Shown here: positions 8,082 through 36,066 of the stretch, one piece after another
How positions within the stretch are numbered: position 1 is the stretch's first letter
How the letters are laid out: the number at the start of each line of letters is the position of its first letter
NCBI RefSeq assembly: GCF_040026395.1
Contig: NZ_CP157278.1
Location: forward strand, 3,968,001 to 4,032,000
Reading direction: 5' to 3'
Origin: Pedobacter lusitanus
GTDB taxonomy: Bacteria > Bacteroidota > Bacteroidia > Sphingobacteriales > Sphingobacteriaceae
DNA: 64,000 nucleotides
Program-made: the position numbers and the translations under genes
Notes under the pieces: model-generated
Seen by the model: the letters and a program-made list of their open reading frames with translations, nothing else
Told to the model about the DNA's origin: nothing
Database searches by the model: none

Positions 8082-9398
8082 ATGAAAAGAATCATCATAT
8101 ATGCTTTGCTATCCATAGGAGTATTTTCTGGCTGTAAAAAGAACAACGAGATACTGGTGGATGGAGAAAGACCAGAAGACAGAGTAGCTGAGGCACTCAC
8201 CAAATACAGTGACCAATTAACAGATAGCCCTTACGGTTGGAAGGCCTATTTATACCCGGCAGGGGGCGGCGGGTTTTCATTCTATCTGAACTTTACCAAA
8301 AAGAACAGGGTAACGATGTATTCAGATTTGGATAATGGCCCGGCAACGACTGCTAAAGAAAGCTCATATCGCTTAAGAGCAAGTATGAATCCTTCTTTGG
8401 TATTTGATACTTATAATTACATGCATATACTCGCTGATCCGGATGCAAGGGTATTTGGAGGAACACCGGGATGGGGTTTGTATTCTGATTTTGAATTTAA
8501 CTTTGGAGTACAGACTGGTGATACTTTAAAGCTAACCGGTAAATTGCTGGACAGTAAACTGGTTATGGTGAGAGCAACCAAAGCTGAGCAGGATGCTTAT
8601 AACAATAAAGGTCTGCTGACTTCATTAGTGACTTCAACAGATTATATCGCTGCGAACAGTACATTGTATACCAATATTGACGGGGCGGTTAACTTACAGA
8701 CTATCTTTGATTATTTTCAGAAGAAAATGACCCTGGTATGGGATGATAAGGGAACGATCAGTTCTGCGATCAGCCCTTTTGTTTTTACACTAAACGGCAT
8801 ATTACTGCAGGATCCTGTTTCCTATAAAGGTAAACTGCTGAGGGAGTTTATATGGGATGCAGCAACGCAGGGATTTTATACTACTGTTGATGGGAAAAGA
8901 TTTGATCTGAAATCATCTCCTTCACCATTATTACCATTAAATGCACTGATAGGGATCAACTATACTTCGGTAACAGTCCCTAATGGAACTACTTATCCGG
9001 GATGGTCTGCAGATTTTATAGCCAGAAGAGCTAAGGCAGCATCAGGTACGCTAACGAGTGGGTACAACCTGAGACTGGATAAGATGGCTTTAGTATTTAA
9101 TGTGAACCAAAGCATGCTGACATTAACCGCAGACGTATATCAGACTGCAAACAAATTTCTGGCTATCTATCCTTATAGTTATACCAAAACTCCGGCAGGA
9201 GTGTATAAGTTTACTTTAGGGGCAATGAATGGTAATGCTTCGGTAATTGCTACTGCGATGGCACCGCTGCTCAGTGAAAGATTAGGTGCTGATACCTTTA
9301 CCCTGGATTACTTTACGAATCTAACTAACAAACAGGTATTGGGTCAGTTTAAAAGTGTTGAACACCCTGATTTTGCATTTACGGGTACGCTACAATAA
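8082..9398 (+). CDS. DUF4302-like lipoprotein of the SusCD operon
   Basis: Lipoprotein of 438 aa. The ATG at 8082 is chosen because it puts a signal sequence with lipobox FSGC (Cys18) at the N-terminus; the open frame before it only overlaps the end of the previous gene. The mature start (NEILVDGERPEDRVAEALTKYSDQLTDSPYGWKAYLYPAGGGGFSFYLNF) resembles DUF4302 proteins, which recur beside HExxH lipoproteins in SusCD operons of Bacteroidota. The function is unknown; an accessory substrate-binding role is a guess from context. It is the last gene of the operon and is followed by a strong terminator. Confidence 0.75.
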   Translation: MKRIIIYALLSIGVFSGCKKNNEILVDGERPEDRVAEALTKYSDQLTDSPYGWKAYLYPAGGGGFSFYLNFTKKNRVTMYSDLDNGPATTAKESSYRLRASMNPSLVFDTYNYMHILADPDARVFGGTPGWGLYSDFEFNFGVQTGDTLKLTGKLLDSKLVMVRATKAEQDAYNNKGLLTSLVTSTDYIAANSTLYTNIDGAVNLQTIFDYFQKKMTLVWDDKGTISSAISPFVFTLNGILLQDPVSYKGKLLREFIWDAATQGFYTTVDGKRFDLKSSPSPLLPLNALIGINYTSVTVPNGTTYPGWSADFIARRAKAASGTLTSGYNLRLDKMALVFNVNQSMLTLTADVYQTANKFLAIYPYSYTKTPAGVYKFTLGAMNGNASVIATAMAPLLSERLGADTFTLDYFTNLTNKQVLGQFKSVEHPDFAFTGTLQ

Positions 9399-9428
9399 AT
9401 TCTGTCACACCTTGAAAAACAAATAGCT

Positions 9429-9464
9429 AAGCTTCTCTTCTTTAATTAGAAGGGAAGCTTTTTT
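9429..9464 (+). terminator. Rho-independent terminator of the SusCD operon
   Basis: A 13-bp stem (arms 9429-9441 and 9448-9460, one G-U pair) with a 6-nt loop is followed at once by a T run. It lies 30 bp after the DUF4302-like gene and fits as the end of the sigma-FecR-SusCD transcript. Confidence 0.85.
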
Positions 9465-9598
9465 ATTTACCTCTTTACTTTACGCGACACTATTGGGGAT
9501 TTATTTAATGAGTGGGGAAAATAATTCCCCAATTGAGCACTTTTTTCCCCTTATACGATGTATTTAGATCTACCTGGAAATCGGTATATCGCTTTGAT

Positions 9599-9937
9599 TT
9601 AATGAGCAGCAGACTTTTGAGTCCTTATGATTTCATATAACTGAATTATTTTTTTCTGCTGATCGTTATATTTTTCACTCAGTTCATCCAGCTGTTTTTT
9701 TACATCCGGATATTGTTCATCCTGGGCATCTTTTTCTCCGATACGCAGCATATCAATTATTGAAACACCGTATATATCAGCTATTTGCTGAACTTTATAG
9801 AAAGACACGTCTGTTATTCCAGTCTCTATTTTAGAGTAGGCTGTAACAGATATACCCAACTGATCGGCTACAATTTTCTGGCTAATGCAATGTGTGTTAC
9901 GAATTGCTCTAAGCTTTTTTCCAATATTTTGAATCAT
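9599..9937 (-). CDS. XRE-family helix-turn-helix regulator
   Basis: Small DNA-binding protein of 112 aa. Residues about 5-62 are a Cro/CI-type HTH (IGKKLRAIRNTHCISQKIVADQLGISVTAYSKIETGITDVSFYKVQQIADIYGVSIIDML). Residues about 75-105 are a short charged, possibly coiled tail (KKQLDELSEKYNDQQKKIIQLYEII). It is a lone gene on the minus strand, convergent with the uptake operon, with about 1 kb of gene-free DNA on its upstream side that leads to the polysaccharide locus. Control of either neighbour is possible but not shown. Confidence 0.85.
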   Translation of the reverse strand: MIQNIGKKLRAIRNTHCISQKIVADQLGISVTAYSKIETGITDVSFYKVQQIADIYGVSIIDMLRIGEKDAQDEQYPDVKKQLDELSEKYNDQQKKIIQLYEIIRTQKSAAH

Positions 9938-10533
9938 GTGTTATAGATTTTAACGGGGATAAGAAAATAATGTTTTTCAAAAAAATATTTTTGTTATGTT
10001 AAATGTTGCAAAAGGGAGGCCAAGGAGAAGTTTTGTTTGTATCAAATTTGTTAAGAAAGGTGCCGGATTGTCCCGAAGCAGTACAGTTAGGGGGAATTAC
10101 AGATTTGGGAAATTGTTTATTCCTGATTTGGCGTGCGGGCTGATTTCTGGTTAATCATAATTAAAATAGGCAGATTTGAAGGAGAAATATTGATGCAACA
10201 GGTATTTTATTAACCTTAAGAATAATTTGGAGGGTTGAACGCAGTTTAACGGATGGTTGCGAACTGATATTGTTGCTGTGGGCCGCTGGTTGTATTCAGG
10301 AGATTTTGGGAAGAAAAGGAGCTTTTGTGTATGGTTATGGTATTTTGTTGTATGCTGCCTGTTGATTTGTCTTTTGGGTTCTCTGCGGAATAGCTCTGAA
10401 TTTCGTGTTAAAATTATTACCGGTATCAGATTAATTGGATTAAGTTGTCTGAAAGAAGTGAAATGGTTTCTTTTCGGATATAAATGATAAATCACAAAAT
10501 ATATAAATCCTTTGATGGATTTTGTTTTTAAAA

Positions 10534-26288: not shown

Positions 26289-27458
26289 ATGAGCTTGTTA
26301 AATAAAAAAGTAAAGATTATCAGATCAAGTACCGTTGCCTTATCTCTGAATTATCTCTTAAAAGGGCAGTTGAGATTTCTTAATCAGTATTTTGAGATTG
26401 TAGCCGTGTCGGGTAGTGGGAGTGATCTGGATGAAGTTCAAAGAAGAGAAGATGTAAGGGTTATCCCGGTGAAAATGGAGAGAAAGATATCGGTGTTCAA
26501 AGATATTGTATCATTTTTTAACTTATATTTTACCTTTATAAGAGAGAAACCACTTATCGTTCATTCTATTACACCCAAAGCTGGTTTGCTCAGTATGTCG
26601 GCTGCTTATTTTGCGGGGGTACCAATTCGGATGCACACATTCACCGGATTAATTTTCCCAACCCACACAGGGTTCAAACGCCGGATATTGATTGGAATGG
26701 ATAAGCTTTTATGTTTATTTGCGAGTAAAATTTATCCGGAAGGACAGGGTGTTAAAAACGATCTTGTGAAATATGGAATCACTAATAAACCACTAAAAAT
26801 TCTTGCTAATGGCAATGTTAATGGTATAAATCCTGATTATTTTAACCCTGAAAAATTTAATGAAGAGCAAAATGAATCGTTGAGATCATCATTAAATATT
26901 CTTAAAGATGAGATGTTATTTATCTTTGTTGGCCGCTTAGTTAGGGATAAGGGGGTTAATGAACTGGTTGCCGGATTCAAAAAATGTAATGCTGATTTTC
27001 CTCAGGTAAAGCTTTTATTGCTTGGTTTGACTGAAGATGATCTTGATCCTCTCTATCCGGAGACTATCGAAGAGATTAAAAATAATAAGTCAATTATAGC
27101 AGCAGGATTTGTTACAGATGTCAGAGCTTATCTTGCCATAAGTGATGTTCTGATTTTACCTAGTTATAGAGAGGGGTTCCCAAATGTCGTTTTACAGGCT
27201 GGAGCAATGGGCTTACCAAGTATTGTAACTGATATTAATGGTAGTAATGAGATCATTACTAATGGTGAAAATGGATTGATCATCGAAGTTAAGAATGAAA
27301 AAGCAATTGCAGATGCTATGGAACTATTGATTAGAAGTCCGTCTATTATAGATTCTATGAAGAAGAATGCAAGAAAAGAAATTATCGAGCGTTTTACTCA
27401 GGAAATAGTATGGGATGCCATTTTGGAAGAATATAATATGGAGATAAGAAATGTATAA
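26289..27458 (+). CDS. Glycosyltransferase family 4, capsular type
   Basis: GT-B transferase of 389 aa. Features: N-terminal [56 protein letters not shown], a phrase seen in CapM/PglA-like enzymes that act on the first lipid-linked sugar; [20 protein letters not shown]; and [34 protein letters not shown] at the donor site. It overlaps the next gene, the PglC-like initiating transferase, by 8 bp. This coupling suggests it adds the second sugar directly after initiation. Confidence 0.9.
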
Positions 27459-28053
27459 GCTATTTTTTAAACAAACATTGGATATAATTATCGCCTTGGT
27501 TGGGCTGGTCATATTGTTTCCTGTATTTATTATTGTGCTGTTATTGCTATATTTTGCAAATAATGGCAAACCATTCTTCTTTCAGGTCAGACCGGGGAAG
27601 AATGGAAATTTGTTTAAAATTATCAAATTCAAGACGATGAATGATAAACGTGGAAGTGATGGCGTTCTTTTGCCTGATTCTGCCCGTTTAACGGCTGTTG
27701 GAGCTTTCGTTCGTATGACTTCTTTAGATGAGCTGCCACAACTATTAAATGTTATTAAAGGTGATATGAGCCTGGTCGGACCAAGACCTTTATTACCGGA
27801 GTATTTGCCTTTGTATTCGAAAGAACAAAATAGAAGACATGAAGTTCGTCCGGGAATTACAGGTTGGGCTCAGGTTAACGGGAGGAATGCAATCAGCTGG
27901 ACAGAGAAATTTACTCTGGATGTTTGGTATGTTAATAATCTTAGTTTTTGGCTAGATTTGAAAATCATATTGTTAACGATTAAAAAGGTAATTGTGAAGG
28001 AAGGAATTTCTTCTGATACGTCTGCCACTATGGAAAAATTTACAGGGAATTAA
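27451..28053 (+). CDS. pglC: Initiating sugar-phosphate transferase, PglC-like
   Basis: Small monotopic phosphoglycosyl transferase of 200 aa, which moves a sugar phosphate from a UDP-sugar to undecaprenyl phosphate at the inner membrane. One N-terminal re-entrant membrane helix (about 10-36), then [22 protein letters not shown], the catalytic Asp-Glu pair (93-94, [23 protein letters not shown]) and [14 protein letters not shown]. The short form lacking the extra WcaJ domains is the PglC type, which prefers UDP-diacetamido-bacillosamine or similar 2,4-diamino sugars. Neighbouring pglE, pglD and pglF homologues fit that. Substrate is inferred from context. Confidence 0.9.
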
Positions 28054-28112: not shown

Positions 28113-29237
28113 ATGAATGATAAAATCTGGCTTTCATCTCCCCATATGGGAGGTACTGAGCAAAAATATGTGAATGATGCTTTTGTGGAAAACTGGATTG
28201 CCCCACTAGGTCCGAATGTAAACGGTTTTGAGGCAGATTTAGAAAAGTACACAGGTGTTGCACATGCAGCAGCGCTAAGTTCCGGTACTGCTGCTTTGCA
28301 TCTTGCATTAATCTTGTTAGGTGTTGGTGAAGGAGATGATGTAATTTGCCAGAGCTTTACGTTTTCAGCTTCTGCAAATCCTATAGTTTATTGTAATGCT
28401 ACTCCGGTATTTGTGGATAGTGAATCAGATACCTGGAACATGTGCCCCATTCATCTTGAAGAGGCGATTAAAGAGCGTCTTGCTCAGGGGAGAAAAGTTA
28501 AAGCTATTATTCCTGTTCATCTATATGGTATGCCAGCAAAGATGGATGAGATATGTGCTATCGCGAAGAAATATGATATTGCTATTGTTGAGGATGCTGC
28601 TGAAGGTCTTGGTTCAAAATATAAAGGTAAGCCTTTAGGGGCCTTTGGTAAATTTGGGGTACTCTCATTTAATGGCAATAAGATTATAACTACCAGTGGT
28701 GGTGGTGCATTACTTTCCGATAATATGGCCGATATAGAAAAAGCACGTTTCTTAGCCACGCAGGCAAGAGATAATGCGCCACATTATGAACATACGCATA
28801 TTGGTTATAACTATCGTATGAGTAATATATGTGCAGGAATTGGCCGTGGTCAAATGGAGGTCTTAGATGATAGGGTTAATCAGAGAAGAGCTGTTCATAA
28901 TTATTATATGAAAGAACTTGGTGATATTAGTGCTATCTCGTTTCTTTTGGAACCGGAAGGGTTTTACTCAAACAGATGGTTATCCTGCATTTTGATTGAC
29001 CCAAAGCATAAAGTAAAGAGAGAGGATCTTCGCCTGGCATTAAATGCTGAAAATATTGAATCAAGGCCGTTATGGAAACCTATGCATTTACAGCCTGTTT
29101 TTATGAACTATCCGTATTATGGAAATGGGATCGCCGAAACTTTGTTCAATACAGGCTTATGTTTGCCTTCTGGATCTAACTTATCAGAAAGTGACCTGGA
29201 AAGAGTTGTAACAGTAATTAGAAGGCTGTTTAAATAA
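28113..29237 (+). CDS. pglE: PLP-dependent sugar aminotransferase, PglE-like (DegT/DnrJ/EryC1/StrS)
   Basis: Cytoplasmic aminotransferase of 374 aa expected to place an amino group on C4 of UDP-2-acetamido-2,6-dideoxy-4-ketohexose made by PglF. The N-terminus (IWLSSPHMGGTEQKYVNDAFVENWIAPLGPNVNGFEADL) is close to PglE. Cofactor residues: SSGTAALHLAL, QSFTFSASANP, VEDAAEGLGS and the PLP lysine at about 190 in LSFNGNKIITTSGGG. It is separated from pglC by 59 bp. Product would be UDP-4-amino-4,6-dideoxy-GlcNAc, the acceptor for the PglD-family enzyme at 31131. Confidence 0.92.
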   Translation: MNDKIWLSSPHMGGTEQKYVNDAFVENWIAPLGPNVNGFEADLEKYTGVAHAAALSSGTAALHLALILLGVGEGDDVICQSFTFSASANPIVYCNATPVFVDSESDTWNMCPIHLEEAIKERLAQGRKVKAIIPVHLYGMPAKMDEICAIAKKYDIAIVEDAAEGLGSKYKGKPLGAFGKFGVLSFNGNKIITTSGGGALLSDNMADIEKARFLATQARDNAPHYEHTHIGYNYRMSNICAGIGRGQMEVLDDRVNQRRAVHNYYMKELGDISAISFLLEPEGFYSNRWLSCILIDPKHKVKREDLRLALNAENIESRPLWKPMHLQPVFMNYPYYGNGIAETLFNTGLCLPSGSNLSESDLERVVTVIRRLFK

Positions 29238-29295
29238 CTTAAATTATTGTTTAAAAAGGCATTGATTTGCTTGACCACATATTGTATAGATTTTT

Positions 29296-30912
29296 ATGAA
29301 AAAATATCTCCTTTATCTTGTTTTTGTATTTTCGGTTTATACTGTCTCAGCACAGGAGCATACCCCAAATCAGAATATGCCTTATTCTTTTCAGTTCTAT
29401 CAGAAATTCAATCAATCTGTTTATGATGTGAATTCCAGATTTCATAGTTCAATTAAAGGGTATTATAGCGATGATACTATATTGGTTGGCCGATTTAAAG
29501 AATTAATGAATATGGGTGTTGATTCTGTTAATCATAGAAGCTGGGTAAGACGAAAACTCACACAGGAACATTTGTTAAATTTTACGGCTGATGATTATAG
29601 TGTGTACGCCGATTTTTTACCTGATCTGCAGCTTGGACGTGATTTTAAGGGGAAAAAGAATACATGGCTAAATACAAGAGGTTTTCAGATTGGTGGTAAT
29701 GTAGGTAAGCAATTTTCTTTCTATGCCAGTGCATATGAGAATCAGGGAGTTTTTTCTGATTATTATACGCAGTTTATTGACAAAAATCAAGTTGTCCCGG
29801 GGCAGTCTTCAGGATACAAGGTTAATAATAAAATCAGGGATTATTCTTATGCAACAGCATTACTTTCTTACACACCAAATAAGTATTTAAACTTTGCTTT
29901 AGGATACGATAAGAATTTTATCGGAGATGGATATCGTTCGATGTTGCTAAGCGATAATACAGCGCCATACTCATTTTTAAGAGTACGTGCATCTTTGGGA
30001 AATGTTCAGTATCAGACTATATTCGCTTATATGCTTGATCCGGGAGCACCGAAACTGACTACCGACAGAAGATTGGGCGATAGAGGGAAATGGATGGCTG
30101 CTCATTATATTGACTGGAATGTGACCAAAAGATTTTCAGCAGGCTTTTTTCAGGCAGTAACGTGGGCAGATGCTGAGCCGGAAGGAAAGAGAGGATTCGA
30201 TTTTAATTATGTACATCCATTTGTTTTTCTGCGATCAATTGAAAGCGCTAATAGTACTTCTCCTGATAAAATGCGTCTGGGTTTTAACCTGAAATATGAA
30301 ATCCTGGATAAAACAGCTATATATGGTCAATTTATGTTTGATGAGTTTATTGCCAAAGAGTTTTTTTCCGGCAACGGTTTCTGGGCTAATAAATCGGCTT
30401 TTCAGATTGGGATAAGAGGATCAGACCTTTTCAAGGTTAAGAGCTTGAATTATCTGGCTGAATTTAATAGCGCAAGACCTTTTACTTATTCCCATAACGA
30501 TAGGGTTTCTAATTATGCCGCCTATAATCAACCTCTTGCAAACCAATTAGGTGCTAATTTCAGAGAGGTGATAGGGATGCTGAATTATACATATAAAAGA
30601 TTTGACTTTAATTTAGAGCTGATGTATGCACGTTATGGTCTGGATCCTGCCGGGATGAATTATGGCGGAGATATTTTCAAAAGCTACGATACCAGGACAT
30701 TAGACTACGGAAATAGGATCGGGCAGGGAATAGGAACGGATTTATATTATTCAGAAGGTAAGGTTGCTTATGTACTTAATCCGAAATATAATTTAAGACT
30801 TGAATTAGGTGGGATTTTAAGAAGAGAAACTAATTCGATTTCTAAAACCGGAACAGCAATGTTTACTATTGGATTACGCAGCACGTTTAGAAATCTTTAT
30901 AGTGATTTCTAG
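29296..30912 (+). CDS. Wzi/RemB-like outer membrane protein
   Basis: Protein of 538 aa with signal peptide (MKKYLLYLVFVFSVYTVSAQ) and many amphipathic strands ending in TAMFTIGLRSTFRNLY, so a large outer membrane barrel. The phrases FALGYDKNFIGDGYRSMLLSDN and RGFDFNYVHPFVFLRSIESAN resemble the Caps_assemb_Wzi group and RemB-type proteins of gliding Bacteroidota. Wzi of Escherichia coli anchors capsule to the cell surface. A surface-attachment role for the polymer made here is likely but not proven. It lies between the pglE and pglD homologues, dividing the amino-sugar genes. Confidence 0.68.
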   Translation: MKKYLLYLVFVFSVYTVSAQEHTPNQNMPYSFQFYQKFNQSVYDVNSRFHSSIKGYYSDDTILVGRFKELMNMGVDSVNHRSWVRRKLTQEHLLNFTADDYSVYADFLPDLQLGRDFKGKKNTWLNTRGFQIGGNVGKQFSFYASAYENQGVFSDYYTQFIDKNQVVPGQSSGYKVNNKIRDYSYATALLSYTPNKYLNFALGYDKNFIGDGYRSMLLSDNTAPYSFLRVRASLGNVQYQTIFAYMLDPGAPKLTTDRRLGDRGKWMAAHYIDWNVTKRFSAGFFQAVTWADAEPEGKRGFDFNYVHPFVFLRSIESANSTSPDKMRLGFNLKYEILDKTAIYGQFMFDEFIAKEFFSGNGFWANKSAFQIGIRGSDLFKVKSLNYLAEFNSARPFTYSHNDRVSNYAAYNQPLANQLGANFREVIGMLNYTYKRFDFNLELMYARYGLDPAGMNYGGDIFKSYDTRTLDYGNRIGQGIGTDLYYSEGKVAYVLNPKYNLRLELGGILRRETNSISKTGTAMFTIGLRSTFRNLYSDF

Positions 30913-31030
30913 GGATTGATAATATATATTATTCATTTATCAGTTTCGGTTATAGTAATGAATTAAGCCTTGTCAGAAGACTAATACGGCTCTTTTGTAA
31001 CGTAAATATATTGTATACTCCATTAAAAGC

Positions 31031-31053
31031 CTCAAATTTTTGTTAAATTTGAG
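31031..31053 (+). promoter_or_regulatory. Hairpin overlapping a possible -7 box upstream of pglD
   Basis: CTCAAATTT (31031-31039) and AAATTTGAG (31045-31053) form a perfect 9-bp inverted repeat with a 5-nt loop. The right arm contains TAAATTTG (31044-31051), a match to the Bacteroidota -7 box TAnnTTTG, about 80 bp before the pglD ATG. No good -33 box was found, so it could equally be an operator or a weak RNA hairpin in the 218-bp gap. Confidence 0.4.
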
Positions 31054-31130
31054 CATTATCACATTAAGAAGTAAGCTATAGTATTAGTAGAGAAGATAAC
31101 TTATCTCGTAGATTTATTACATAAACAAAA

Positions 31131-31775
31131 ATGAAAAATATTGCAATAATAGGTGCTGGAGGATTTGGACGAGAAGTTAAGATGTTAATAGACCAGATAA
31201 ATAATCAGTCGAAAGAATATAACTTATTAGGTTATTATGCTGATGGCGTAACTCCTTCTACCTTGATCAACGGGTATCCTGTTCTGGGTCCGATAGAGAA
31301 CCTGAATAAAGTTGACGAAGAATTATTTGTTGTAGCTGCAATTGGATTACCATCTTTAAAAAAGAAGTTACTGAGTATAATAGATAATCCATTTATATCA
31401 TATGCGACATTAATTCACCCTAATGTTATAATTGGCAGTGACGATGTCACTATAGGTGAAGGATCTATTATTTGTGCCGGAAGTATTATAACAGTGAACA
31501 TTAATATCGGCAGGCATGTAATATTTAACCTTGGTTGTACTGTTGGCCATGATACCATAATTGAAGATTATTGCTCGTTCATGCCATCTGTTAATGTCTC
31601 CGGAGAGGTTAAGATAAAACAGTCTGTTTATGTAGGGACTGGTGCGAAAATTATTAATCAACTGGAAATAGGAGAAAATACAATTGTGGGTGCAGGAGCT
31701 GTTGTCTATAAATCTCTCCCTGCAAACTGTACGGCAGTTGGTATTCCTGCGAAACCAGTTAAATTTCATGATTAG
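31131..31775 (+). CDS. pglD: NeuD/PglD-family acyltransferase (left-handed beta-helix)
   Basis: Acyltransferase of 214 aa. N-terminal Rossmann-like domain binds the UDP-sugar (IAIIGAGGFGREVKMLI). The C-terminal hexapeptide-repeat helix runs from about residue 95 (IGSDDVTIGEGSIICAGSI) to VGIPAKPVKF. The catalytic base is the histidine in GCTVGHD (about 140). PglD of Campylobacter moves acetyl from acetyl-CoA to the 4-amino group of a UDP-sugar. Here the next three genes are ACP, ketoreductase and ketoacyl synthase, so the donor may be a 3-hydroxyacyl-ACP instead of acetyl-CoA. That change of donor is inferred from context. Confidence 0.88.
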   Translation: MKNIAIIGAGGFGREVKMLIDQINNQSKEYNLLGYYADGVTPSTLINGYPVLGPIENLNKVDEELFVVAAIGLPSLKKKLLSIIDNPFISYATLIHPNVIIGSDDVTIGEGSIICAGSIITVNINIGRHVIFNLGCTVGHDTIIEDYCSFMPSVNVSGEVKIKQSVYVGTGAKIINQLEIGENTIVGAGAVVYKSLPANCTAVGIPAKPVKFHD

Positions 31776-31823
31776 AATAAGTAACTCAATAAAATTTATT
31801 TAAAGAAAGCTCAAGATAAGTAT

Positions 31824-32054
31824 ATGGAAGAACAAAAATTTGTGAATAATTTTGCACTTCAATTTGATGAAACGGATTCTGAATTAATTCAGATGGACAC
31901 TAAATTTAAAGATCTTGATGAATGGAGTTCTTTAACTGCATTATCAATAATGGCAATGGTTGACGAGGAGTATGGAGTTAATATAACTGCAGAGGACCTT
32001 AAAAACTCAACAACTTTAACAGATTTATTAAACATAATTAATTCGAAAGTCTAA
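31824..32054 (+). CDS. Acyl carrier protein
   Basis: Dedicated acyl carrier protein of 76 aa, too far from any fatty-acid synthesis operon to be the housekeeping AcpP. The phosphopantetheine site is Ser36 in LDEWSSLTALSIMAMVDEEYG; the usual DSL motif is SSL here. Helices II and III look complete (MAMVDEEYGVNITAEDLKNSTTLTDLLNII). Similar ACPs with a WxSLTAL-type site occur in O-antigen clusters. It is 48 bp after pglD and 3 bp before the SDR gene, so the three are expected to work together. Confidence 0.92.
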   Translation: MEEQKFVNNFALQFDETDSELIQMDTKFKDLDEWSSLTALSIMAMVDEEYGVNITAEDLKNSTTLTDLLNIINSKV

Positions 32055-32057
32055 ATT

Positions 32058-32795
32058 ATGTTCTCACTACAAGGTAAAACATTTCTTGTTACTGGGGCCT
32101 CTTCTGGTATAGGACGGCAAATAGCTATTTCTATCTCAAATTTTGGGGGTAAAGTAGTGGCCGTTGGTCGTGATATTAATCGTATCAAAGAAACATTAGA
32201 TCTCCTTGAAGGAGAAGGACATTCTTATCATCTCTTCGATTTATCCAGTTATAAGGAAATATGTGAATTTGTAAGTAATTCCATAAAATTTGACGGAATA
32301 GTCTTTAATGCAGGTGTAATAGATTATACACCGGTCAAATTCATTACTGAAGAGAAAATGATTAAAATATTTGATCTTAATTTTAAAAGTGTCGTATTTC
32401 TAAGCCAGCAGCTTATTAAAAATAAGTTGATTAATAAAATGGGCTCTTTAGTGTTTATTTCTTCAGTTTCATCAAAACTAGGTGTATCCGGTACAGCACT
32501 ATATGCTTCTTCGAAAGCAGCAATAAATGCATATTCGAAAGTTATAGCATCGGAACTGGCAAATCAAAAAATCAGATCTAATAGTATTTCTCCAGGGATA
32601 ATTGTAACGAAGATGACTGAAAAGGCTATTGAAGTGATTTCTGATGCCTCTGTTAATGATGCTGAAAAGGCCTATCCTCTTGGATATGGGACACCAATAG
32701 ATGTAGCTGGATCAGTTATTTATCTTTTGAGTGATGCGAGCAAATGGATGACCGGGTCTGAGTTAATTTTAGATGGAGGCTTAACGCTGAAATAA
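32058..32795 (+). CDS. Short-chain dehydrogenase, FabG-like 3-ketoacyl-ACP reductase
   Basis: Classical SDR of 245 aa. Cofactor loop TGASSGIG (12-19), NAG in FNAGVID (84-86), catalytic Ser136-Ser137 region (FISSVSS), Tyr149 and Lys153 (LYASSKAA), and the C-terminal MTGSELILDGG typical of FabG-like enzymes. Beside an ACP and a KAS III the likely reaction is NAD(P)H reduction of a 3-ketoacyl-ACP to 3-hydroxyacyl-ACP. A role on a sugar is less likely because sugar reductases of this locus are of the extended SDR type. Confidence 0.85.
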   Translation: MFSLQGKTFLVTGASSGIGRQIAISISNFGGKVVAVGRDINRIKETLDLLEGEGHSYHLFDLSSYKEICEFVSNSIKFDGIVFNAGVIDYTPVKFITEEKMIKIFDLNFKSVVFLSQQLIKNKLINKMGSLVFISSVSSKLGVSGTALYASSKAAINAYSKVIASELANQKIRSNSISPGIIVTKMTEKAIEVISDASVNDAEKAYPLGYGTPIDVAGSVIYLLSDASKWMTGSELILDGGLTLK

Positions 32796-32800
32796 TACTG

Positions 32801-33808
32801 ATGAAAGCAAAAATAAAAGCGATAGCTTACTATCTGCCTGAGACTAATTTAGGGAACGAAGAAATAAACGAGCTTTTTCCTGAATGGTCAGTAGAAAAAA
32901 TTTCGGGTAAAACCGGAATATATAACCGTCACATTGCTGAGGTTGATGAATTTTCATCAGATATGGCTATTAAGGCTGCCGAAAAGCTGTTTTCAGATTA
33001 TGATATCGATCGGAATACTATTGATTTTATTCTTCTTTGTACACAAAGTCCGGATTATATCTTACCTACCACAGCTTGTATCATTCAAAATAAACTGGGG
33101 ATTCCAACTTCATGCGGGGCCCTGGATTTTAATCTTGGGTGTTCTGGCTATATTTATGGGTTAGGGTTAGCTAAAGGACTGGTGCTTTCGGGGATAGCGA
33201 AGAATATTTTATTCCTGACTGCAGAAACCTATAGTAAATTTATACATCCTAAAGATAAAAGTAATCTGACTATTTTCGGTGATGGAGCATCAGCAACTCT
33301 GATTTGTGCTGATGATGGTTTCGCTGAAATTGCAGAGTTCAATTTCGGAACTGATGGTAAAGGAGCTGAAAATTTAATTGTGAAAAAAGGTGGAATTAGA
33401 TTTCCAGGTTTAAGTAATGAAAAAGACGACATTACTGACGAGTTTGGAAATGTAAATAACCCTGGGAAATTATATATGAACGGAGGGGAAATATTTGGTT
33501 TCACTTCTGGCGCAGTGCCAAAATTAGTTCAGAATGTTTTATCTGGTAATAGTTTACAGCCTTCAGATATTAGTATGTATATTTTTCATCAGGCTAATAA
33601 ATACATGCTTAATCATCTCCGGAAAAAGATAAATATAGAAGAAGAAAAGTTTTTCTATTTTTTGAAAGACTGTGGTAATACTGTTTCTTCTACGATCCCC
33701 ATAGCATTAAAAGAAGCTATAAATTCCGGTGATTTAAGTGGAAATATCTTGCTGGCTGGTTTTGGCGTCGGATATTCCTGGGGCGGTTGTGTACTTAAAA
33801 TGCAATAG
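32801..33808 (+). CDS. 3-oxoacyl-ACP synthase III (FabH-like)
   Basis: Beta-ketoacyl synthase of 335 aa. Catalytic triad visible: Cys114 (NLGCSGYIYG), His263 (IFHQANKYML) and Asn293 (CGNTVSSTIP); C-terminal GFGVGYSWGGCVL. KAS III enzymes condense a short acyl-CoA with malonyl-ACP. With the adjacent SDR this gives a 3-hydroxyacyl group, for example 3-hydroxybutyryl, on the adjacent ACP. No dehydratase or enoyl reductase is present, so the chain would stay hydroxylated. It is the last gene of this sub-operon; a 323-bp gap follows. Confidence 0.9.
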   Translation: MKAKIKAIAYYLPETNLGNEEINELFPEWSVEKISGKTGIYNRHIAEVDEFSSDMAIKAAEKLFSDYDIDRNTIDFILLCTQSPDYILPTTACIIQNKLGIPTSCGALDFNLGCSGYIYGLGLAKGLVLSGIAKNILFLTAETYSKFIHPKDKSNLTIFGDGASATLICADDGFAEIAEFNFGTDGKGAENLIVKKGGIRFPGLSNEKDDITDEFGNVNNPGKLYMNGGEIFGFTSGAVPKLVQNVLSGNSLQPSDISMYIFHQANKYMLNHLRKKINIEEEKFFYFLKDCGNTVSSTIPIALKEAINSGDLSGNILLAGFGVGYSWGGCVLKMQ

Positions 33809-34131
33809 TGCGCAATACTTAGAGGAAATGGAAATTATTCCAATTTTATATACTGATTTTACATACACTGGACAAATACTTGTTCATTATTTAGGTCAGA
33901 TGGAATTCTGAACTCCCCCGCTTTATTTAAAAAATGAAATTATTGGTGTTTATTTGAGTTTTTTGTCAAATGATGCTTTTTGTAATCTATAGTTGATCTT
34001 TTTGTACTTTGTTTCATTTGAATTATAACTTATTGGTAATTTTCAGATTGGTGACGGGATAAATGAAATTGGATAATTTGAACTTGGTATGATTTTTTGA
34101 TTAAATTTGTAGATTATTAAAATATAAAATC
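33809..34131. other. 323-bp intergenic region before pglF
   Basis: No gene seen. It is AT-rich, has a short inverted repeat GGAAATTATTCC at about 33830-33841, and its right end carries the pglF promoter listed at 34077-34109. No terminator hairpin with a T run was found after the KAS III gene. Confidence 0.5.
34077..34109 (+). promoter_or_regulatory. Bacteroidota-type promoter of pglF
   Basis: TTTG (34077-34080), 21-bp spacer, then TAAATTTG (34102-34109), matching the -33/-7 pattern TTTG...TAnnTTTG. Transcription would begin near 34115, a short leader before the TTG start at 34132. The last gene of the locus therefore seems to have its own promoter. Confidence 0.6.
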
Positions 34132-36066
34132 TTGTTCAGTCAGATAAACATAGTACCCAGATGGATAATATTTACGCTTGATTTAACGATATGTTTTATA
34201 TCGTTGACATTGGCATATCTAATCAAAAGAAATTTTGATTTATCTACTTTAGATTATTTAGAGTTTAGCAGAAATGTATTGGTTACTACTGTCATCAGTA
34301 CATTAGTTTTCCTAAAGGTGAAAACCTTCTCTGGTATTATCAGATATACAAGTGCTCAGGATACTTTCCGTATCTTATATGCAGTTATTGTAATTAACAG
34401 TACATTTTTTCTGGTTAATATGGCATTCGTTGCTACTGGTAATCTGGCAATAATTCCAAATAGTATTCTTATTATCAATGGTCTTTCCAGCTTTCTGCTT
34501 TTAATCACCTATCGTGTTCTGATCAAGTATTTCTTTATCTATATCAAAAATTTAAAGCTTGATAAGATCAGAGTAATGATATATGGTGCCGGAGAAGCAG
34601 GTGTCGCTACCAAAAGAACTTTTGATCATGATCCTAATGTCAATAAAAATATTATAGCCTTTGTAGATGATGATCAACGAAAAATGGGTAAGACCATTGA
34701 CGGGATCAAAATCCTTGATGCTAAAGATCTGGTAAATCTGATCGTAGAGCATCAGCTCGATGAAATCATTTTCGCTTCATACACGATCCCTAAAGAAAGA
34801 AAAAACCAAATCGTAGACGTCTGTCTTGAAAATGGAATAAAAGTCTTAAACATTCCTCCGCCGAATGTATGGACGGACGGGAAGTTACAACCAACTCAGA
34901 TTAAGAAATTAAACATCGAAGATTTACTGGATCGTAAGTCTATTCATATTGATATTGAAGGAATCGGACATCAGCTTAAAAACAAACGAATACTTATAAC
35001 CGGAGCAGCAGGTTCAATAGGAAGTGAAATTGTTCGTCAGCTGACTAAGTTTGAGATAGGATTGATTATTCTTTGTGATCAGTCTGAAACTGCCTTGCAT
35101 GAGTTATATCTTGAATTAACTGAAACTGCCAAAAATCAAAATTTCCATGCTTTTATAGGGGACGTTAGAGATGAAAAAAGGATGGAACACCTGTTCAGTA
35201 CTTTTAAGCCTCACTACGTCTACCATGCCGGCGCATACAAACATGTACCGCTGATGGAAGATAATCCTTGTGAGGCTATTAAAACTAACGTATTAGGTAC
35301 AAAAACGATCGCAGATAAGGCGGTTAAATACGGGGTTCAGAAATTTGTAATGATTTCCACTGATAAAGCTGTAAATCCTACTAATGTAATGGGAGCCTCA
35401 AAGAGAATTGCTGAAATCTATGTTCAATCTCTTAACAATTCTCTGCATAACAATAATCATATTTTCAGTAACGGATTAAGTTATATCAACGAATTGGATA
35501 TTAAGCCGATTACTAAATTTATCACTACCCGCTTTGGGAATGTTTTAGGTTCCAATGGCTCTGTGATCCCACGATTCAAGCAGCAGATTGAAAAAGGAGG
35601 GCCGGTTACTGTTACTCACCCTGAAATAACCCGTTATTTTATGACTATCCCGGAGGCTTGTCGTCTGGTACTGGAAGCAGGCTGTATGGGTGATGGTGGT
35701 GAGATCTTTATCTTTGATATGGGGAAATCGGTGAAAATCGTGGACCTCGCTAAAAAGATGATTCAATTGGCTGGCCTTGTTCCAAATCAGGATATCCAGA
35801 TTGAGTACTCAGGATTAAGGCCCGGAGAAAAATTATTTGAAGAATTGTTAAATGATAATGAAAATACGATGCCTACACATCATGAAAAGATTATGATAGG
35901 TAAAGTAAGAGAATATGCGTTTGATGAGATCCAGCTTCAGATTTATGCTCTTATAGAGCATGCTAAAAGATGTGATGACCTCCAGGTAGTTACACTCATG
36001 AAAGAATTAGTCAAAGAGTATAAGAGTAAGAATTCTATTTTTGAGGATTTGGATGTGAAATCTTAA
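34132..36066 (+). CDS. pglF: UDP-GlcNAc 4,6-dehydratase, membrane form (PglF/CapD/FlaA1 family)
   Basis: Inner-membrane dehydratase of 644 aa that turns UDP-GlcNAc into UDP-2-acetamido-2,6-dideoxy-4-ketoglucose. Four N-terminal membrane helices (about 10-135), a first Rossmann domain (VMIYGAGEAGVAT, about 148-160), then the catalytic SDR domain (ILITGAAGSIGSEIVRQL, about 287). Active site T410-D411-K412 and MGASK (420-424), the PglF-type replacement of the usual YxxxK; GLRPGEKLFEELL near the end. The TTG start at 34132 is the only usual start after a stop at 34102 and gives the normal family N-terminus (MFSQINIVPRW). It supplies the substrate of the PglE homologue. Confidence 0.93.
   Translation: MFSQINIVPRWIIFTLDLTICFISLTLAYLIKRNFDLSTLDYLEFSRNVLVTTVISTLVFLKVKTFSGIIRYTSAQDTFRILYAVIVINSTFFLVNMAFVATGNLAIIPNSILIINGLSSFLLLITYRVLIKYFFIYIKNLKLDKIRVMIYGAGEAGVATKRTFDHDPNVNKNIIAFVDDDQRKMGKTIDGIKILDAKDLVNLIVEHQLDEIIFASYTIPKERKNQIVDVCLENGIKVLNIPPPNVWTDGKLQPTQIKKLNIEDLLDRKSIHIDIEGIGHQLKNKRILITGAAGSIGSEIVRQLTKFEIGLIILCDQSETALHELYLELTETAKNQNFHAFIGDVRDEKRMEHLFSTFKPHYVYHAGAYKHVPLMEDNPCEAIKTNVLGTKTIADKAVKYGVQKFVMISTDKAVNPTNVMGASKRIAEIYVQSLNNSLHNNNHIFSNGLSYINELDIKPITKFITTRFGNVLGSNGSVIPRFKQQIEKGGPVTVTHPEITRYFMTIPEACRLVLEAGCMGDGGEIFIFDMGKSVKIVDLAKKMIQLAGLVPNQDIQIEYSGLRPGEKLFEELLNDNENTMPTHHEKIMIGKVREYAFDEIQLQIYALIEHAKRCDDLQVVTLMKELVKEYKSKNSIFEDLDVKS

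Follow-up and report, generated by a model that had tools for sequence, protein, structure and literature searches.

The window analyzed here is a stretch of 64,000 nt of Pedobacter lusitanus DNA (GCF_040026395.1, contig NZ_CP157278.1, positions 3,968,001-4,032,000, forward strand), in which a polysaccharide region of 24 ORFs spans 10.9-37.7 kb; two of these ORFs have no Pfam match and one has a weak match only. Within this region, all on the + strand, lie genes for a PglC-like phosphoglycosyl transferase (27451..28053; 200 aa), a PglE-like aminotransferase (28113..29237; 374 aa), a 538-aa protein (29296..30912), a PglD/NeuD-like N-acyltransferase (31131..31775; 214 aa), an acyl carrier protein (ACP, 31824..32054; 76 aa), an SDR that is a putative ketoreductase (32058..32795; 245 aa), a KAS III of module type A (32801..33808; 335 aa) and a PglF-like UDP-GlcNAc 4,6-dehydratase (34132..36066; 644 aa). 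The initial annotation had placed PglE, PglD, PglF and PglC homologues in one locus with an ACP, an SDR and a KAS III, the last three directly after pglD; the ORFs and their family matches bear this out, and the gaps it gave for pglD-ACP-SDR-KAS III (48, 3 and 5 bp) are exact. The PglC-like gene lies just upstream of 28113, where the stretch covered by that annotation begins. The 538-aa protein between pglE and pglD, absent from that annotation, has no Pfam or NCBIfam match, and among the ORFs of the first loci collected it matched the window's own DNA only (the window and L085); it is not part of the ACP-SDR-KAS III module. A promoter and terminator scan gave signal at the level of shuffled sequence, and a repeat search found nothing.

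The sugar-handling proteins are assigned by family and by solved structures. The PglE-like protein (PF01041, 336 bits) has as nearest solved relatives 1o61 (351 bits) and 4ztc (348 bits), which we take to be PglE-type aminotransferases of C. jejuni, and at E<=1e-10 the genome has just one further protein matching it (31% identity); as a member of this family it would make the 4-amino group of the sugar. The PglF-like protein (PF02719, Polysacc_synt_2, 400 bits) is closest to WlaL (5bju, 284 bits), presumably a PglF. The PglC-like protein (PF02397, Bac_transf, 212 bits), whose gene adjoins pglD in many relatives, is likely to transfer the acylated amino sugar phosphate onto the lipid carrier. 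The bacillosamine pathway of Campylobacter jejuni, as generally known, has the same four sugar-handling steps (PglF-PglE-PglD-PglC); its PglD uses acetyl-CoA, and we know of no ACP-SDR-KAS III set in that organism.

The PglD-like protein belongs to the NeuD/PglD/VioB family (TIGR03570, 200 bits versus a curated cut-off of 160.8; PglD_N, 47.9; hexapeptide domains), and its nearest solved relatives are two NeuD-type enzymes, 4m9c and 7txp (VioB). Its catalytic His140, preceded by Gly139, is His in 104/104 labelled homologues; in the PerB entries 4eaa and 4eab the alignment has the equivalent His changed to Asn and Ala. It has no match in the genome except itself at E<=1e-15, and within the polysaccharide region's 24 ORFs it is the sole acyltransferase recognized by Pfam. 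UDP-sugar N-acyltransferases of the LpxD type are left-handed beta-helix enzymes that take a 3-hydroxyacyl group from ACP; the window enzyme differs in being of the NeuD/PglD family, and LpxD models score below cut-off on it.

All the active-site residues that had been named for the three module proteins were located by script: Ser36 of the ACP, Tyr149/Lys153 of the SDR and the Cys114/His263/Asn293 triad of the KAS III. The ACP passes PF00550 (PP-binding; 24.5 bits versus a cut-off of 20.8), with all NCBIfam ACP models below cut-off, and its Ser is shared by 74/74 aligned ACP rows of the module type (overlapping loci contributed a few of these); four PPTase-domain matches occur in the genome, and these proteins could be the activators of the ACP. 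The SDR (PF13561, 149 bits) falls below every listed FabG-specific NCBIfam cut-off (TIGR01830, 138 versus 297.75), its assignment being to the SDR superfamily with the Tyr/Lys motif, and its ketoreductase role is putative. The KAS III, with its triad and a score of 264.9 bits against PRK09352 (cut-off 249), is a KAS III by family, while it scores 251.5 against TIGR00747 (fabH), under the cut-off of 292.1. In the KAS III tree it groups with module clade A and away from 14/14 FabH-like rows, of which three come from its own genome; its lineage is distinct from that of the genome's FabH-like proteins, and it does not group as a housekeeping FabH would. It is the one KAS III of the cassette. The genome's three other KAS III matches (L002-L004) lie elsewhere, and their flanks of ~1.5 kb contain no ACP, SDR or PglD match.

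The comparative search for the module beside pglD in other Bacteroidota shows that ACP-SDR-KAS III recurs across the phylum. Among 151 genomes of the family, 14 have a module-type KAS III (E<=1e-60), and in six of these 14 a PglD homologue (E<=1e-15) lies within ~1.1 kb, against about 0.01 expected by arithmetic under independent positions; the linkage of KAS III to PglD is thus beyond chance. Of 80 loci that were gathered through KAS III similarity and scored for neighbors within 3.5 kb, 76 have an ACP gene on the KAS III strand; among the 62 loci where 3.5 kb is available on either side, 61 have one. A NeuD/PglD-type enzyme occurs in 38/80, or in 13/55 once 25 similar Flavobacterium loci are set aside as one block. 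Nine loci, in the stretches examined, have the bare pglC-pglD-pglE triad; elsewhere the module interrupts the pglC/pglD/pglE array, before or after pglD. In L043 it is an LpxD-like protein (PRK00892, 269 bits) that adjoins the module. This conserved linkage fits a mechanism in which KAS III and SDR would produce a 3-hydroxyacyl-ACP from which PglD would acylate UDP-QuiNAc4N.

The genes, their active-site residues, the conserved linkage and the distinct lineage of the KAS III are observed; on this basis we propose a pathway whose enzymatic steps, donor and chain length are all predictions. With a probability that we put at roughly 0.78, the locus would make a lipid-linked surface-polymer unit, its first sugar being a 2-acetamido-4-(3-hydroxyacyl)amido-2,4,6-trideoxyhexose. 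PglF and PglE would convert UDP-GlcNAc to UDP-QuiNAc4N; KAS III would join malonyl, carried by the dedicated ACP, to an acyl-CoA (most likely acetyl-CoA) by condensation; the SDR would reduce the 3-oxo group; the PglD-like enzyme would move the 3-hydroxyacyl group, most likely 3-hydroxybutanoyl, from ACP to the 4-amino group; and PglC would then start the lipid-linked oligosaccharide. The 3-hydroxybutanoyl group is predicted because the window has a single KAS III.

This mechanism is not new, having been proposed for F. psychrophilum and, for a parallel system, partly tested by deletion in P. syringae; since similar gene sets are described in these fish and plant pathogens, the window adds a further example of an already known type. 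According to the F. psychrophilum report (PMC6519341), the O-polysaccharide carries a dihydroxyhexanamido group, so that the precedent cited in the initial annotation is right; the acyl chain is predicted from synthases WfpC/WfpE and reductase WfpF, the PglD homologue WfpG is predicted to take the group from the ACP WfpD, and the set includes pglE, pglF and the PglC homologue WfpB. Compared by description, the window resembles wfpC-wfpG plus wfpB, pglE and pglF in its functions (ACP, ketoreductase, 3-ketoacyl-ACP synthase, PglC/D/E/F), and it has the general wfp-type gene content, namely ACP, ketoreductase and KAS next to a PglD-type enzyme, with PglE and PglF. Acylated QuiNAc4N is taken as the first sugar on the lipid in F. 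psychrophilum, as it is in our proposal. The window differs from what is described there in that its pglE and pglD are parted by an unrelated gene, and in its single KAS III, as opposed to the two synthases and the 3,5-dihydroxyhexanoyl group of F. psychrophilum.

The viosamine island of P. syringae (vioA, vioB, vioS, vioR, acp; PMC3927599) is also similar by description, with one KAS III, one ketoreductase, one ACP and VioB, an acyltransferase whose substrate is a 4-amino-6-deoxy sugar. It serves dTDP-viosamine for flagellin, whereas the window would serve a UDP-2,4-diamino sugar and, by family and solved-structure matches, has a PglF/PglE/PglC set; the island has a dedicated transferase, VioT, and a methylase, VioM, and its listed genes include no PglC or PglF. 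The earlier proposal that PglD moves a 3-hydroxyacyl group from the ACP to the 4-amino group gains support, at the level of gene content, from the comparative evidence and from two published systems. A small fatty-acid-type line devoted to supplying a sugar N-acyltransferase would extend this kind of surface-sugar decoration to a further genus of Bacteroidota, and the gene set is present in many members of the phylum.

An SDR gene lies within 3.5 kb of the KAS III gene, on its strand, in 71 of the 80 loci and in 56 of the 62 with full flanks. This frequency bears on a very improbable alternative, in which the SDR is not the chain's ketoreductase: an acetoacetyl (3-oxo) group would then be transferred as such, or the housekeeping FabG would carry out the reduction. 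The frequency argues against it together with the vioR deletion in P. syringae, by which the reductase VioR is needed for the modified sugar to appear (PMC3927599). The alternative draws on the SDR's scores, above no FabG-specific model cut-off, and on the 6/76 ACP-bearing loci that have no SDR nearby, among them that of P. hiemivivus (L005), where the order is PglD-ACP-KAS III.

The donor of the PglD-like enzyme requires closer consideration, because PglDs 58-64% identical to it (L179-L181) occur in genomes without the module, so that the donor cannot be read from the sequence of PglD alone. In these genomes the KAS III matches at E<=1e-40 are all FabH-like (31-34% identity); the active-site half of PglD is nearly identical in the window protein and these module-less relatives, and no active-site residue separating them was found. 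This membership of close module-less relatives in the window's PglD lineage qualifies the initial annotation. In favor of the proposed pathway, residue 139, beside the catalytic His, is Gly in 26/27 module-linked PglDs and Ser in 1/27 (acidic 0/27), while among unlinked PglDs it is acidic in 41/77 and Gly in 25/77. Residues 169-172 speak against it: there the form xFGxxS occurs in 13/27 linked versus 1/77 unlinked PglDs; GxGA is kept in the window PglD, in 36/77 unlinked PglDs and in the solved 4m9c, which we take to be an acetyl-CoA enzyme, and in 5/27 linked PglDs. PglD charge as a sign of ACP docking was considered and rejected (mean -1.8 versus -2.0, no difference).

On a first PglD tree of 45 rows (19 linked, 24 unlinked), drawn from the Sphingobacteriaceae family sample and the collected module loci with duplicates, 21 of 25 similar Flavobacterium loci, PglDs <65 bits and PglDs <185 aa left out, the linked rows all lie on one side (1 change; 0/500 shuffles as low), with support for the split of only 44/71. 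A clean split was rejected when the phylum-level sample broke it: that tree (101 rows; 22 linked, 77 unlinked) gives 4 changes versus 20 in shuffles, and its 36-row fork with all linked rows also contains 13 unlinked ones, including the window's nearest module-less relatives. For this tree L233 and L240, whose stretches end before the ACP, were labelled linked by hand; the ACP came to light in longer stretches of these contigs, L323 and L322. With five weaker linked PglDs added there are 5 changes versus 24 in shuffles, and 27 unlinked rows fall within the smallest side that takes in every linked row. Module linkage is thus clustered on the PglD tree, yet PglD sequence alone is non-diagnostic.

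These module-less relatives, and the near identity of their active-site half, are what favors an ordinary acetyl-CoA N-acetyltransferase that makes diNAcBac, with ACP-SDR-KAS III serving another acceptor or pathway; another acyltransferase could moreover be hidden in the three ORFs of the polysaccharide region with no or weak Pfam match. We nevertheless judge this reading improbable: no other acyltransferase is recognized in that region, the module in relatives is wedged into pglC-pglD-pglE arrays or lies beside other acyltransferases, and a set of the same functions in F. psychrophilum makes a dihydroxyhexanamido sugar (PMC6519341).

As to chain length, the preferred 3-hydroxybutanoyl group must be weighed against a longer or branched 3-hydroxyacyl product, from a KAS III that acts twice or starts from some primer besides acetyl-CoA. 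A two-round product, 3,5-dihydroxyhexanoyl, is described in a related system (PMC6519341); the window, however, has just one KAS III and one SDR, and in P. syringae the one-synthase island goes with a C4 group, 3-hydroxybutanoyl (PMC3927599). Further evidence comes from the widest KAS III tree (FastTree, 108 loci, KAS III ORFs >100 bits, clades cut by named reference rows), in which 46/50 two-KAS III loci pair an additional B2-type enzyme with A (42) or B1 (4); the window has no B2. A longer chain is therefore unlikely, though it keeps some weight, and one extension is likelier than the two that would yield dihydroxyhexanoyl, given one KAS III.

The four exceptions in that tree are A+A (L075, L076) and A with an unplaced type (L051, L057). 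B2 rows have an A or B1 partner in 46/48 cases and stand alone in two, and a lone KAS III is A in 47 loci and B1 in seven. These counts come from loci collected mostly by A-type similarity, many closely related and some the same place twice (e.g. L027/L322, L031/L323), with ORFs <250 aa or running off the stretch left out, so that a few second KAS genes may be missing. The loci of the two earlier trees were hand-picked; in one, pairing was 20/20 with L075, L051, L057 and L076 left out. Because 46/50 two-KAS III loci show this pairing, a chain-length code for the acyl group of surface amino sugars in Bacteroidota can tentatively be suggested, at less than even odds: A or B1 alone would give C4 3-hydroxybutanoyl-ACP, addition of B2 would give a second round and C6 3,5-dihydroxyhexanoyl, one reductase would serve both rounds, and the module would be interchangeable among kinds of acyltransferase (NeuD/PglD, LpxD-like, short hexapeptide, possibly GNAT/MBOAT). 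The pairing rule is possibly a new point, and if it holds, acyl groups of many unstudied polysaccharides would be predictable from sequence. Such groups matter for antigenicity: in F. psychrophilum, LPS antigenicity varies between strains with different predicted R-group genes (PMC6519341).

The co-occurrence of pgl genes with ACP, SDR and KAS III genes in one locus, reported in the initial annotation, is confirmed; when the ORFs and residues were re-located, all of the gene coordinates, intergenic gaps and active-site residues claimed for the window genes proved correct. The surrounding genome is complete (6.05 Mb), and the polysaccharide genes span ~10.9 to 37.7 kb of the window. They encode two enzymes of RmlD and GDP-mannose-dehydratase type, a protein for SLBB export, a Wzz-like protein, a flippase, a UDP-GlcNAc 2-epimerase, an EpsG-type polymerase and several glycosyltransferases, followed in order by PglC, PglE, unknown protein, PglD, ACP, SDR, KAS III, PglF. 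The ACP passes its Pfam cut-off narrowly (24.5 against 20.8), and the serine at position 36 is conserved in all 74 module-type ACPs aligned. The protein between pglE and pglD (29296-30912; 538 aa) begins like a signal sequence, is rich in aromatic residues and gave no Pfam or NCBIfam match; it is perhaps an outer-membrane barrel, a guess from its sequence. Within 10001-42000 the polysaccharide locus has mostly 31-37% G+C versus 38-42% in most of the flanking DNA, consistent with acquisition or rapid exchange of the locus. Outside the window the genome carries many large multi-domain carrier-protein genes with repeated PP-binding domains and open frames of up to 7839 codons (C1:1189000-1322000, 2048000-2110000, 4953000-5019000 and 5938000-5966000), and looks rich in NRPS/PKS-type clusters.

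Conservation of the module was assessed in the best 80 of 228 loci by similarity to the window KAS III. On the same strand and within 3.5 kb of the KAS III gene, an ACP is found in 76 of the 80 and an SDR in 71 (61 and 56, respectively, of the 62 loci with sufficient flank). In 38 of the 80, a NeuD/PglD-type enzyme lies near the module KAS III; 25 of these form a block of similar Flavobacterium loci, and with this block left out the count is 13/55. Proteins of other kinds can also lie beside the module, for example an LpxD-like enzyme (locus L043) and proteins of the GNAT-domain (L059), short hexapeptide (L050) and MBOAT (L060) kinds. The other three KAS III matches in the window genome have no ACP, SDR or PglD match within the fetched flanks (~1.5 kb). 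In Pedobacter hiemivivus (L005:9075-11008) a pglD-ACP-KAS III array is 71, 67 and 76% identical to the window counterparts, and the fetched 21 kb hold no SDR, pglC, pglE or pglF match.

The arrangement acp-sdr-kasIII beside pglD, for which a search in other Bacteroidota had been proposed, does occur there. Of 296 genomes sampled across the phylum, 79 have a PglD at E<=1e-18, and 14 of the 90 PglD places listed are module-linked (the window, one in genome G035, which is placed in the same genus, and 12 of the 88 others fetched, in two of which the ACP shows only in longer stretches of the contig). Among 151 genomes of the family, 47 have a PglD homologue (E<=1e-15) and 14 a module-type KAS III (E<=1e-60), with a PglD homologue within ~1.1 kb of the latter in 6 of these 14; in L119 and L126 (family genomes G020 and G124) a hexapeptide protein below the survey PglD threshold adjoins the module KAS III. 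The fetched stretch of nine loci (L092, L094, L095, L097-L100, L105 and L111) has a bare pglC-pglD-pglE triad, whereas in others the module is inserted into this order: pglC-pglD-ACP-SDR-KAS-pglE (L006, L076 and also L008, where pglE is in two pieces), pglC-pglD-ACP-KAS-SDR-KAS-pglE (L063), pglC-pglD-KAS-ACP-SDR-pglE (L178), pglC-KAS-ACP-SDR-pglD-pglE (L203, L269) and pglC-ACP-KAS-SDR-pglD with pglE downstream (L317). In Mucilaginibacter sp. dw_454 (L076:4543-14201) two complete KAS-ACP-SDR modules surround one pglC-pglD pair.

Module linkage and two published systems make the construction of a 3-hydroxyacyl-ACP by KAS III and SDR, for transfer by the PglD-like enzyme to a 4-amino group, the best supported reading, as initially proposed; the chain length, stereochemistry and donor of the acyl group we infer. 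A mechanism of this kind has already been proposed for Flavobacterium psychrophilum and Pseudomonas syringae. According to PMC6519341, the R1 group of the F. psychrophilum O-polysaccharide is 3,5-dihydroxyhexanoyl, which bears out the group named in the initial annotation; the genes assigned to it, a prediction from gene content that accompanies a solved polymer structure, are wfpC and wfpE (synthases), wfpD (ACP), wfpF (reductase) and wfpG (PglD homologue), together with pglE, pglF and wfpB (PglC homologue). PMC6519341 also describes strains without the R1 genes that carry another PglD homologue, which resembles the module-less PglDs of this survey. In P. syringae pv. tabaci, PMC3927599 reports that loss of vioR, a neighbor of vioS (KAS III), acp and vioB, removes modified viosamine from flagellin, and proposes N-(3-hydroxy-1-oxobutyl)viosamine intermediates. 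One synthase accompanies C4 and two accompany C6 in these two cases; because the window, like P. syringae and unlike F. psychrophilum, has a single KAS III, 3-hydroxybutanoyl is predicted. It would be placed on the 4-amino group of UDP-QuiNAc4N, and PglC would load the acylated sugar as the first sugar.

PglD by itself does not reveal the acyl donor, because the window PglD lineage contains both module-linked and module-less kinds. The PglDs of L179-L181, 58-64% identical to that of the window and among its nearest in the phylum-wide sample, have no module, and do not differ from it in the active-site half; KAS III matches in their genomes (E<=1e-40) are FabH-like (31-34% identity), and L180 is a pglC-pglD-pglE-pglF array. 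At L179:1911-3534 the PglD (62% identical) follows formyltransferase-like and PIG-L deacetylase-like genes, which hints at other N-acyl chemistry within the lineage. In a set of 104 labelled homologues, the position preceding the catalytic His is acidic in 0 of 27 linked PglDs (Gly 26, Ser 1) versus 41 of 77 unlinked ones (Gly 25; Fisher p ~1e-7, on related rows). Of fetched PglDs flanked by pglC and pglE, all four linked have Gly, and the 25 unlinked have Glu or Asp (18) or Gly (7). The residue is Asp in PerB (4ea7) and in pilin glycosylation protein 4m98, Ser in VioB and Ala in 4m9c, all presumably acetyl-CoA users. Given these counts and structures, Gly139 of the window enzyme is compatible with a larger acyl group, which is not proof of one.

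In a tree of 70 KAS III proteins the window enzyme groups within module clade A; none of the 14 FabH-like rows, which include three from its own genome, joins it there. A second tree (72 rows), extended by places from a B-type query in the 296 genomes, divides the module enzymes into groups A, B1 and B2; each of its 20 two-KAS cassettes combines one B2 with one A (16) or B1 (4), and 20 of 21 B2 rows lie in such cassettes (exception, L312). B-query matches at >=50% identity occur in nine genomes, with a second KAS III adjoining in eight of the nine. Because the loci of the second tree were hand-picked, the analysis was repeated on 108 loci (KAS III ORFs >100 bits), 50 of which have two KAS III genes: A+B2 in 42, B1+B2 in 4, A+A in 2 (as a tandem in L075, split over two modules in L076) and A with an unplaced type in 2 (L051, L057). 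Single-KAS loci are A (47), B1 (7), B2 (2) or unplaced (2; L190, L192). Of the findings, this pairing rule, drawn from sequence comparison, is the one that may be new, and it can be tested. Within the two-KAS cassette of L009 a Rieske-type ring-hydroxylating oxygenase homologue (8926-10011) precedes pglD and might hydroxylate the acyl chain; 360-366 aa ORFs occupy the same place across Flavobacterium loci L009-L033, the family having been tested in L009 only. The solved KAS III nearest to that of the window is PDB entry 3gwa (354 bits; next, 207), named only 3-oxoacyl-ACP synthase III; it could be a member of the module-type group to which the window enzyme belongs.
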